64,000 bases of DNA from Paracoccaceae bacterium (GTDB lineage: Bacteria; Pseudomonadota; Alphaproteobacteria; Rhodobacterales; Rhodobacteraceae): contig CACAPQ010000003.1 in the NCBI GenBank assembly GCA_902534325.1, positions 1 through 64,000 of the forward strand. Reading direction: 5' to 3'. The position numbers and the translations under genes are program-made. Of the stretch, positions 11,361 through 55,557 are shown piece by piece. The notes under the pieces were generated by a model that saw only the letters and a program-made list of their open reading frames with translations, searched no databases and was not told the DNA's origin. Each line of letters opens with the position of its first letter. Position 1 is the first letter of the stretch.

Positions 11361-11738
11361 ATGGATTGGTACGGACCAGATAAGGCTACTTTTGGTGACA
11401 GATTGGTGGCTGCAAGGGAAAAATCAAATTTATCGCAGCAGGATTTGGCGAAGCGCCTTGGAGTGAAAAATTCAACTATTAAATCATGGGAAAATGATAA
11501 CTCTGAGCCACGCGCAAATCGGCTCTCCATGCTGGCTGGTTTATTAAATGTATCAATTACTTGGTTAATTAGTGCTGAGGGGTCAGGCGTTGAGGACCCT
11601 CAGAAACAATATGAGATGCCGGATGATTTGCAAGAGCCCCTCGAAGAGTTGACGGCATTAAGGATAAACTTACTGAAAAGTATTGATAGAATTAATAGTA
11701 TAGAAAATAAGCTCAGAGCTAGCGGAAAACTTAACTAA
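11361..11738 (+). CDS. XRE-family helix-turn-helix transcriptional regulator
   Basis: Small DNA-binding protein of 125 residues. The Cro/CI-type helix-turn-helix covers about residues 12-66: FGDRLVAAREKSNLSQQDLA, KRLGVKNSTIKSWENDNSEP, then the closing helix NRLSMLAGLLNVSITWLI. The C-terminal 50 residues are charged and probably helical (LEELTALRINLLKSIDRINS), suited to oligomerisation. Only three bases separate it from sdhE, so the two form an operon; this arrangement next to sdhE is the only functional hint. Target genes are unknown. The start is ATG with AGG about ten bases upstream. Confidence 0.87.
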   Translation: MDWYGPDKATFGDRLVAAREKSNLSQQDLAKRLGVKNSTIKSWENDNSEPRANRLSMLAGLLNVSITWLISAEGSGVEDPQKQYEMPDDLQEPLEELTALRINLLKSIDRINSIENKLRASGKLN

Positions 11739-52629: not shown

Positions 52630-54111
52630 ATGCGACAATTTTATATTTTTAAAACTGCACGAATTTCGACTGCAGAAGATATAAGAAAATTACAACAGGT
52701 TATCTTAACAGCGTTTTTTGTGATTATAAGCGTCTTTCTACAAACTATAGTTTTAAATGCTCGCGGTGCGCCGGAAAGTTTTGCTGATTTAGTTGAAGAT
52801 GTGGGTTCTTCTGTGGTCAATATAACCACAACGACAAAAGTTGAATCTCCAGTGGTTCCAAGGGGTGTTGTGCCTGAAGGCAGCCCATTTGAAGAATTGT
52901 TTCGAGATTTTCAAAACCCGAATAGTCCTCGACAAAGACCGCGCAATGCAAATGCTTTAGGTTCTGGTTTTGTTATTAGTAGCGATGGTTTTATCGTGAC
53001 AAACCATCATGTCATAAATGGCGCTGATCAGATAACGATAGAGTTCAATGATGGCTCCTTTCGTGATGCGGCCGTTATCGGTAGTGACGAAAATATAGAC
53101 ATTGCGTTATTGAAAGTTGATGCAGAAACAACGTTAGAGTTTGTAGAATTCGGTGATAGCGATATATCACGGGTTGGTGATTGGGTCATGGCAATGGGTA
53201 ATCCACTCGGCCAAGGTTTTTCTGTGTCAGTCGGAATAATATCTGCGCGCAATCGTGAGTTGGCAGGAAACTATGATGATTACATACAAACAGATGCGGC
53301 CATCAACAGGGGTAATTCAGGTGGGCCACTGTTTAACATGGATGGGGAAGTAGTAGGCGTTAATACGGCTATTTTGTCACCAACTGGCGGATCTATAGGC
53401 ATTGGATTTTCAATGGCATCGAATGTGGTCGAACCAGTTGTTAATCAATTGAAAGAGTTTGGAGAAGTACGCCGTGGTTGGTTAGGCGTAAGTATTGGTG
53501 ATCTTAATCAAGACATGGCTGATGCTTTGGGTATGAAAGAGCCTAGCGGCTCTATTGTTCTGGAGGTGTATGATGGCCCCTCTAAAGATGCTGGTCTCTT
53601 GGCTTCAGACGTTATTGTTATGTTTGATAACAAAGAAGTTGGTAATTCAGGCGAATTGGTTCGTATCGTTGGTGATACAACAGTCGGAAGAACAGTAGAT
53701 GTTATTGTGTTAAGACAAGGTGAGCGTATAAAGGTGAGCGTGAAACTTGGTCAGCGACCAACGAATAAAGAACTTAACGCACAAGTTACATCGCCTGAAC
53801 CAGCCAAGCCAAATGAAGATGCAATTGATGGAATTGGTTTGTCTGAACTGACAGATAGTTTGCGAGAAGAATATGGAATAGATCCTGCAATTTCAGGTGT
53901 AATAATTATGTCTGTAGATGAAACGTCTTCGGCATACGAAAATGGTTTGCGTAAAGGCGATGTAATCACTGATGTTGCCCAGAAACCAATTGGTTCGGTC
54001 GAAGAAGTAGAGGAGCTCGTTTCGAGTGCTAAAAGTGAAGGCCGTCAGTCGGTTCTTCTCTTAGTTCGAAGAGAGGGACAGCCTAGGTTTATAGTACTAA
54101 AATTTAAATAG
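52630..54111 (+). CDS. degP: Do/DegP-type periplasmic serine protease
   Basis: HtrA protease/chaperone of 493 residues. An extended signal peptide ends near residue 46 (VILTAFFVIISVFLQTIVLN, then ARGAPESF). The protease domain has the triad His in IVTNHHVING, Asp in DENIDIALLKVD and Ser in AINRGNSGGPLFNMDG. Two PDZ domains follow, at about 275-365 (RRGWLGVSIGDLNQDMADAL) and 395-490 (GIGLSELTDSLREEYGIDPA). It degrades or refolds damaged envelope proteins. Likely in one transcript with hflKC, and closed by a perfect hairpin at 54123. Confidence 0.95.
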   Translation: MRQFYIFKTARISTAEDIRKLQQVILTAFFVIISVFLQTIVLNARGAPESFADLVEDVGSSVVNITTTTKVESPVVPRGVVPEGSPFEELFRDFQNPNSPRQRPRNANALGSGFVISSDGFIVTNHHVINGADQITIEFNDGSFRDAAVIGSDENIDIALLKVDAETTLEFVEFGDSDISRVGDWVMAMGNPLGQGFSVSVGIISARNRELAGNYDDYIQTDAAINRGNSGGPLFNMDGEVVGVNTAILSPTGGSIGIGFSMASNVVEPVVNQLKEFGEVRRGWLGVSIGDLNQDMADALGMKEPSGSIVLEVYDGPSKDAGLLASDVIVMFDNKEVGNSGELVRIVGDTTVGRTVDVIVLRQGERIKVSVKLGQRPTNKELNAQVTSPEPAKPNEDAIDGIGLSELTDSLREEYGIDPAISGVIIMSVDETSSAYENGLRKGDVITDVAQKPIGSVEEVEELVSSAKSEGRQSVLLLVRREGQPRFIVLKFK

Positions 54112-54122
54112 TTATTCCTAAA

Positions 54123-54147
54123 AGACTGGGAGTAGAACTCCCAGTCT
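54123..54147. terminator. Bidirectional hairpin between degP and the OB-fold gene
   Basis: AGACTGGGAG, loop TAGAA, CTCCCAGTCT: a perfect ten-pair stem placed exactly between the convergent stops (54111 and 54161). T runs are short on both sides (TTTT in the minus-strand direction), so it may need help from Rho, but position and stability support a shared terminator. Confidence 0.7.
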
Positions 54148-54160
54148 AAACTAGTCTGAA

Positions 54161-54511
54161 TTACAAATTTATCTTTGGTAAATCATCGAGCATGTATGAA
54201 ATATCTTCAATATACTCAGCTATTACATGTATAACTGAATTTTCGCTCTGAACCCGTCCTTTTATTTTCAAAAGGCGCCCCGAAATTATAGCACGGCGAA
54301 ATTTTTCATATAAAGTTCGCCAGATTACTATGTTTACTGTTCCTGTTTCATCTTCCAATGTGAGAAAAATAACACCTTTTGCTGTTCCAGGACGTTGCCT
54401 AAGTATCACTAATCCTGCGACGCAGACAATTGTACCAGGTGAAGGACGATCTAGAAAAGATGCGGGACAAGCACTTGGTGGCTTTGGCCATTTTAAGAGA
54501 GTATTTTCCAT
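54161..54511 (-). CDS. Stand-alone OB-fold protein resembling the C-terminal domain of DnaE2
   Basis: 116 residues. Residues 25-110 match the nucleic-acid-binding OB domain at the very end of the error-prone polymerase DnaE2/ImuC: VAGLVILRQRPGTAKGVIFL, TLEDETGTVNIVIW and LLKIKGRVQSENSVIHVIAE. The preceding part (WPKPPSACPASFLDRPSPGT) looks like compressed DnaE2 sequence. No polymerase domain is encoded upstream (54512-54668 has no matching frame), and imuA/imuB are absent. It is either the remnant of a deleted dnaE2 or an independent small OB protein. TATAAT lies seven bases before the ATG with no Shine-Dalgarno, so a leaderless message is possible. Confidence 0.75.
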   Translation of the reverse strand: MENTLLKWPKPPSACPASFLDRPSPGTIVCVAGLVILRQRPGTAKGVIFLTLEDETGTVNIVIWRTLYEKFRRAIISGRLLKIKGRVQSENSVIHVIAEYIEDISYMLDDLPKINL

Positions 54512-54656
54512 TTTTTTATTATATTAAATTTTTTGGTCACTATTTTTGGAACAAAAGTAGAACATATCAAATAATATGACAAGATTCTTTTAATAATTTC
54601 TAAAAAGGTATGGTCGAATTAAATTTAGCTGATTAGAAGAGTTTCACGAATTATAA

Positions 54657-54992
<336 letters not shown>

Positions 54993-55008: not shown

Positions 55009-55557
55009 TTAATTTAACTTTTTCAATGAGTCCCCGTTTCGAATTTGTCCTGCTGATACGACAGAGCACAGTAACCCTCGTAACCTAAGCAGTTTGTTTT
55101 CCTCTAAGGTTATCCAGTTTTTTGCATCCACACCGTAGCGAACCTTCCATTTAACACAGCCTTCATTAAAAATCCCTGATACTTTCAATTTAGCAGTTCC
55201 TGCAGAAAGAATAGTACCTGCTGGGCAATTCTCCTCTGATGTATCAAAATCAGACATGAATGTATCGCCTGGGTGAATTGCTTCGGGTCCAAATTTCACC
55301 GCATTCCAAACTCTAGTAGCTAAAATAGAGACTTGGATACCAGGGTCCGGCTTCCCATTTGAAAGTTTCAGCCAAGGACTTTCCAGCCATCGGTCTCCCT
55401 TAATTCCTTCATTCGGCGTTAATTCCAAAAATTCTGGAAAATTTCTTTGGTTTCGTTTTGGTCGAAAGCATAAATTTTCAATTACAGATTCTTTTTTTGG
55501 TGCATCTTTTATATGTGGTATTGCAGCTAATAATTCTAATTTTGATCTAAAGGTCAT
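55009..55557 (-). CDS. MOSC-domain-like protein
   Basis: 182 residues with MOSC (molybdenum cofactor sulfurase C-terminal) features: EGIKGDRWLESPWLKLSNGK, IHPGDTFMSDFDTSEENCPA, FNEGCVKWKVRYG with the conserved cysteine, and LLCSVVSAGQIRNGDSL at the end. Such stand-alone proteins are thought to handle sulfur or the molybdenum cofactor, often unproven. It is translationally coupled to purD (ATGA overlap), an arrangement that gives no direct clue. The assignment is by motif and is less certain than for neighbours. Confidence 0.7.
   Translation of the reverse strand: MTFRSKLELLAAIPHIKDAPKKESVIENLCFRPKRNQRNFPEFLELTPNEGIKGDRWLESPWLKLSNGKPDPGIQVSILATRVWNAVKFGPEAIHPGDTFMSDFDTSEENCPAGTILSAGTAKLKVSGIFNEGCVKWKVRYGVDAKNWITLEENKLLRLRGLLCSVVSAGQIRNGDSLKKLN

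Follow-up and report, generated by a model that had tools for sequence, protein, structure and literature searches.

The window analyzed here (a whole stretch of 64,000 nucleotides from a member of the Rhodobacteraceae) contains a small gene that very probably encodes the OB domain of the error-prone DNA polymerase DnaE2 as a separate, SOS-induced subunit, completing DnaE2 in trans. In the clade to which this genome belongs, DnaE2 is split at the border between the polymerase core and the OB domain, and the two pieces are encoded at unlinked loci; the same division is seen in numerous Rhodobacteraceae, marine ones among them. The features of the OB locus are collected in Table 1.

Table 1. Features at the locus of the stand-alone OB gene (positions in the window).
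Feature	Position	Strand	Remark
DegP/HtrA-family protease gene	52630..54111	+	Convergent neighbor; marks the conserved locus
Perfect 10-bp hairpin, terminator-like	54123..54147	-	Short T tail; between the convergent degP and OB genes
Stand-alone OB-fold gene, homologous to the C-terminal OB domain of DnaE2	54161..54511	-	116 aa; ATG at 54511
TATAAT, possible -10 element of a putative leaderless message	54518..54523	-	6 nt before the ATG
GTTCTACTTTTGTTC, alphaproteobacterial-type LexA (SOS) box, GTTC-N7-GTTC	54549..54563	-	37 bp before the OB ATG
2Fe-2S ferredoxin gene	54660..54992	+	Divergent neighbor of the OB gene

The OB protein was matched by NF004225 (error-prone DNA polymerase) with an E-value of 5.2e-30 (104.3 bits) over profile positions 944–1037 of 1047 only. 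The best DnaE1-type model was far weaker (E = 7.1e-8), which bears out an earlier note on this DNA that had assigned the OB fold to the DnaE2 type. Pfam PF01336 (OB fold, tRNA_anti-codon) returned 53.9 bits, above its cut-off of 27; given these two matches, the minus-strand frame is no chance frame. The intact frame of 116 residues described in the earlier note was recovered, but it had been placed at 54161–54530 with no strand; it spans 54161–54511 on the minus strand. The PHP and polymerase domains are absent from the chain, and its NF004225 score falls below the 939-bit cut-off of that profile. Because only the OB part was matched and the core is encoded apart, the protein is part of a DnaE2, not a DnaE2. 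Membership in the SSB family (PF00436) was rejected at 14.6 bits (Pfam cut-off 26).

An AF2 model of the protein (mean pLDDT 86) is a five-stranded barrel. Its structure matches include residues 1003–1099 of the M. tuberculosis DNA polymerase 7pu7 (Z = 10.8) and the OB of PolC (Z = 10.3). Foldseek and VIA-align gave their best matches to tRNA synthetases, and RPA and CST proteins also appeared; neither program ranked DnaE2-type OBs first, and polymerase OBs did not stand out. The OB gene is under purifying selection, with a median dN/dS of 0.12 (range 0.04–0.45; 36 pairs among nine close genus sequences).

No polymerase gene lies upstream of the OB gene in the window, as had been noted earlier; its neighbors are the protease and ferredoxin genes of Table 1. 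Of 16 genus genomes, 14 have a short OB frame in this position; the two with no OB match are 81% and 75% complete. Several Ruegeria genomes are also among the carriers of a stand-alone OB gene. The OB and ferredoxin genes diverge at 94 of the 95 stand-alone loci (some of which are the same genome reached twice), the exception being L058, with 250 bp of flank, and the same arrangement was seen in 12/12 further family loci. A dnaE2 occupied this place in none of the 26 frames read and in none of the 95 loci. The orthologues are neither absent nor decayed in the genus, and their conservation at one place, together with the low dN/dS, upholds the earlier view that the frame is functional. The hairpin behind the gene, which the earlier note had called terminator-like, is real: the minus-strand RNA is predicted to fold with 11 pairs at -20.2 kcal/mol (z = -3.8). 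The T run behind the stem is short, and the hairpin is not among the terminators of the strict scan. A 182-aa minus-strand frame (55009–55557) separates the ferredoxin gene from purD; among the surveyed stand-alone loci it was seen in the window's subclade only, and no family in NCBIfam or Pfam matched it. The labels hflC, hflK, purD, xseA, fdsB and gor were assigned by eye.

The remainder of the polymerase was located on another contig of the same genome (77.8% complete). A dnaE2 core at C1:138826–141702 scored 1207.6 bits over NF004225 positions 5–939, complementary to the positions covered by the OB frame in the same profile search (944–1038). The core is 961 aa long, and its C-terminal end lies 2 residues beyond the profile border. 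It retains the PDIDVDF and KVD motifs, which we take to be the expected catalytic-site motifs of the core. Since the core ends just ahead of the OB domain and that domain is encoded apart, the two were read as one DnaE2 in two pieces. Cores scoring above the cut-off were found in 13 of the 16 genus genomes, most of which are incomplete; 12 end at profile positions 938–944, and the 13th (G009), which reaches base 5 of its contig, stops at 882. The lack of linkage is plainest in G053, a single contig of 3,288 kb with the core at 25 kb and the OB gene at 2,922 kb.

This core had escaped the earlier note, as had the GTTC-N7-GTTC box of Table 1, and it overturns one of the two origins proposed there: the mutagenesis polymerase was not lost by reduction, since the genome has a dnaE2 from which precisely the OB domain is missing. 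It follows that the OB gene is almost certainly not an unused, still expressed remnant of dnaE2. The shortness of the frame and the missing polymerase next to it would suit a remnant, but the core is encoded elsewhere in the genome, the median dN/dS is low, and the gene has been kept over 80 loci with its box and place conserved.

The association between the two pieces was examined in a family sample of 150 genomes that represent 149 genera; 148 of the genomes are from genera other than the window's. Two kinds of NF004225 match over the cut-off were seen, ending either at about 937–978 (“split”) or at 1039–1047 (“fused”); stand-alone OB genes were sought with the OB profile A1. A split core was present in 66 of the 150 genomes, and a stand-alone OB gene accompanied it in 62 of these, versus 1 of the 84 others. 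The four split cores without an OB gene belong to genomes in 100–490 contigs (G052, G071, G145 and G160). The single OB gene without any DnaE2 is that of G059, a genome given as 100% complete, and its locus (L142) has the box. Neither piece was found in 83 genomes, comprising 72 with fused DnaE2 only and 11 without DnaE2. Thus, 72 of 73 genomes with fused DnaE2 have no stand-alone OB gene, and the remaining one (G043) has both kinds of DnaE2.

Fisher's test gave p = 4e-36 for this association but ignores kinship, so a DnaE1 tree was built for a phylogeny-aware test (FastTree, 151 rows including two outgroups). G111, which had no DnaE1 match, is missing, and the test therefore covers 149 of the 150 genomes. 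The tree yielded 30 independent pairs that contrast in the split core on supported branches; the OB gene was concordant in a mean of 27.8 of them and opposed in none (median sign-test p = 7e-9). Genomes with fused, split or no DnaE2 are intermixed on this tree (G067 was left out), so the link between core and OB gene is not just one clade counted repeatedly. The split core and the OB gene come and go together across the family. This result also leaves the second earlier proposal, that the domain was captured for a new task, unsupported, because retention and loss of the OB gene follow those of the split polymerase.

Two other roles were weighed against these data. The OB protein could be an SOS-induced single-strand DNA-binding factor that acts beside DnaE2 and not in it, the split DnaE2 working without an OB domain. 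Its fold is of a nucleic-acid-binding type, G059 has the OB gene without DnaE2, four genomes have the core without the OB gene, and several DnaE2 sequences are without an OB domain according to the accessible part of PMC3919608. Nevertheless, we regard such a role as improbable: gain and loss of the OB gene track the split core and never oppose it in the 30 pairs, and the only genome with fused DnaE2 that has the OB gene also has the split kind. Alternatively, the protein might serve another polymerase (DnaE1 or DinB) during the SOS response, for example by displacing the replicative polymerase. The SOS box and the distance from dnaE2 could be so explained, and DnaE1-type models do match the protein weakly (best E = 7e-8). 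DnaE1, however, was found by protein search in 149 of the 150 family genomes, whereas the OB gene tracks split DnaE2 only, and its sequence is far nearer DnaE2 than DnaE1; service to another polymerase is very unlikely. The reading of the OB protein as the missing part of the split DnaE2 is preferred.

Several individual genomes deserve comment. In G059, the OB gene could have a second use, or the core may have been lost recently. G043 carries, besides its split pair, a 126-kb contig with a SRAP gene (PF02586), imuA, imuB and a fused dnaE2 (L147:2475–8625). In G027, the split core is in two frames (L148:5933–8859; a frameshift or a sequencing error), and the OB gene was found by profile. Four candidates for stand-alone OB genes were rejected: in G023, a fused dnaE2 is interrupted where a record of 217,585 bases, probably a circular plasmid, begins and ends, and those in G158 (contig C29), G092 and G096 are pieces of fused dnaE2. 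The DnaE1 match stops at about residue 867–871 while the frame continues in G071, G093, G084, G110, G058 and G139, perhaps owing to an insertion in this part of DnaE1 in several genera.

The box upstream of the OB gene follows what we take to be the consensus of the alphaproteobacterial LexA box. It agrees with the GTTC consensus named in the accessible part of PMC6473078, where LexA sites in D. shibae are listed; neither dnaE nor imu appears in the main text of that paper. The pattern GTTC-N7-GTTC was found within 60 bp of the OB start in 77 of 80 distinct loci (it is missing in L007, L050 and L079), compared to 0/80 for the reversed pattern and 0/80 for the opposite orientation at the same loci. 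Random 60-bp windows of these loci contained the box in 67 of 19,000 cases, true sites included. The box lies 1–2 bp from the start in 68/80 loci and 30–37 bp from it in the window's subclade. Starts were assigned by rule: the ATG nearest downstream of the box was taken, or failing that a GTG or TTG, and the exact distances depend on that rule. Genome-wide, the pattern showed no excess (47 occurrences, versus 57 for the reversed control), and its weight therefore rests on position and conservation.

In the window's own genome, the box also precedes the dnaE2 core (by 12 bp, compared to 37 bp at the OB gene), imuB (by 17 bp) and recA (RecA by TIGR02012, 570 bits). A further box at C40:11469–11483 is near the imuA-like match at 11569, and all 6 genus loci examined have a box on or close to the ATG of their imuA-like gene. 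With either orientation accepted, an exact box was found before the split core in 12/12 genus genomes examined and in only 7/21 examined outside the genus; the claim of co-induction is consequently not extended to every genome. From the boxes before the OB gene, the core, imuB and recA, LexA control of the mutasome genes is predicted. The AT-rich middle of the box resembles a -10 element, so the message may be leaderless and directly controlled by LexA. The TATAAT close to the ATG, to which the earlier note had drawn attention, is present, but the -35/-10 scan listed no pair that uses it.

The search of the genome for dnaE2, imuA and imuB that had been proposed earlier returned the dnaE2 core along with imuA-like and imuB-like genes. 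The imuB-like gene is a 548-aa frame with a Y-family domain (PF00817, 48.6 bits; cut-off 23.2), and in fused cassettes the frame ahead of dnaE2 is its match; in NCBIfam the imuB-like frame returned only weak matches to DNA polymerase IV, with no ImuB model among them. The imuA-like gene matched a cassette ImuA with an E-value of 6.5e-12, and the same query found it in 14 of the 16 genus genomes. Against NF033429 (ImuA), the query itself scored 53.5 bits and a genus member 24.2 bits, both under the cut-off of 150; the matches behind the putative ImuA label are weak but specific. The four genes do not form a contiguous operon, which is the usual but not the universal arrangement: they are on contigs C40, C8, C1 and C3.

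A tree of DnaE2 cores was calculated by a quick method from 48 rows, of which 25 were split and 23 fused (including 4 outgroups; G058 and G192out were counted as fused, as both have the OB tail). All 25 split cores fell on the opposite side of one branch from all 23 fused ones (SH-aLRT 99%), and a single fission of DnaE2 is therefore likely. By eye, 19 of the 23 fused sequences carry a tail of the HPREQAKKLFPSRDFH type behind the OB domain, and an HPRN/HPRS motif is still found at the end of 4 of the 25 split cores, which have no OB domain (G117, G160, G071 and G033). Retention of this tail by OB-less cores suggests that the OB domain was cut out internally and that the split was not a simple truncation. 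Also by eye, the N-terminus of the stand-alone OB protein (WPRPPxAL.A) is similar to the linker of the fused form, LRPRLPESLPHDRL; the core and OB pieces therefore seem to share a few residues. The OB tree was too short and weak to show a single origin of the stand-alone genes, the stand-alone rows requiring 2 changes; G087 was among the fused rows and G091 on a long branch. The OB of G091 (L202) is strongly diverged, and that of G087 (L227) has a long, odd N-terminal stretch. The split probably arose once, through excision of the OB domain from within dnaE2 at a time when a copy already lay between degP and the ferredoxin gene.

The search was also extended to 340 genomes drawn from the whole class. 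Most of the matches listed outside the family were in frames of about 1000 aa or more, and nine were in shorter frames. Two of the nine were inspected and neither is a stand-alone OB gene: in G385, imuB and dnaE2 pieces adjoin in other frames, and in G486, a fused-type piece is near a contig edge. Among the matches listed in this draw, no further stand-alone OB gene was proven outside the family. In a plasmid search, 30 of 829 matching records were considered; 17 were annotated as error-prone DNA polymerase or DnaE2, 7 had no feature under the match, 3 had no annotation, and 3 were of other kinds.

The OB domain of C-family polymerases binds the single-stranded template. In the mechanism that we propose, DNA damage and RecA-driven cleavage of LexA would switch on four genes together: those for the OB protein and the core, imuA and imuB. 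The OB protein would then dock on the DnaE2 core at the place held by the covalent domain in an ordinary DnaE2; physical binding of the two proteins is thus predicted. Once docked, it would bind the single-stranded template, restoring a full mutasome with ImuA–ImuB. A detachable OB subunit acting in trans might in addition be an on-switch, several unlinked LexA genes having to be induced independently and the OB protein setting the dose or timing of DnaE2. We offer this as a tentative idea that may well be wrong; if it is true, a large bacterial clade has a form of control that is unavailable to a single-chain DnaE2.

The two-part enzyme is easily hidden, as the OB gene alone resembles a lone OB protein and the core passes the polymerase cut-off as if it were complete. 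A natural split in a C-family polymerase suggests that the OB domain can work in trans, and it provides a clean genetic handle on the role of this domain in damage-induced mutagenesis. With it, the mutasome of this widespread and mostly marine group gains a fourth gene with an SOS box.

In the PMC papers searched, no description of a separate DnaE2 OB gene was found. The accessible text of PMC3919608 (2013) notes DnaE2 sequences that lack the OB domain; in that text there is no mention of the domain being encoded elsewhere, of an SOS box or of co-inheritance. Stand-alone ImuB-C proteins and many mutasome variants are described in the available portions of PMC6511836 (Timinskas and Venclovas 2019) and PMC12926913 (2026), which do not mention a separate DnaE2 OB. 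ImuB-C is a precedent for a mutasome domain as its own protein, but it is the C-terminal domain of ImuB, occurs in other lineages and is often in an operon. Within the family, the part of PMC9426580 available reports a plasmid cassette of the imuA-imuB-dnaE2 type in Dinoroseobacter shibae, and that of PMC10883770 reports that imuB and dnaE2 co-evolve in the same operon in Phaeobacter inhibens; judging from the latter, the dispersal of genes in the window's genome is not a family-wide rule. Like the LexA-regulated ImuA-ImuB-DnaE2 cassette, this genome has an imuA-like gene, an imuB-like gene and a dnaE2 core with LexA-type boxes, but here the parts are on different contigs with no operon, and the OB domain is a separately encoded fourth part. 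The 116-aa protein shares the OB sequence, the profile position and the OB fold of DnaE2 (ImuC); it differs in being a separate protein from an unlinked gene, with a core that has no OB domain. Judged by this literature, a split DnaE2 with its OB domain as a separate SOS-boxed gene is a new mutasome variant.
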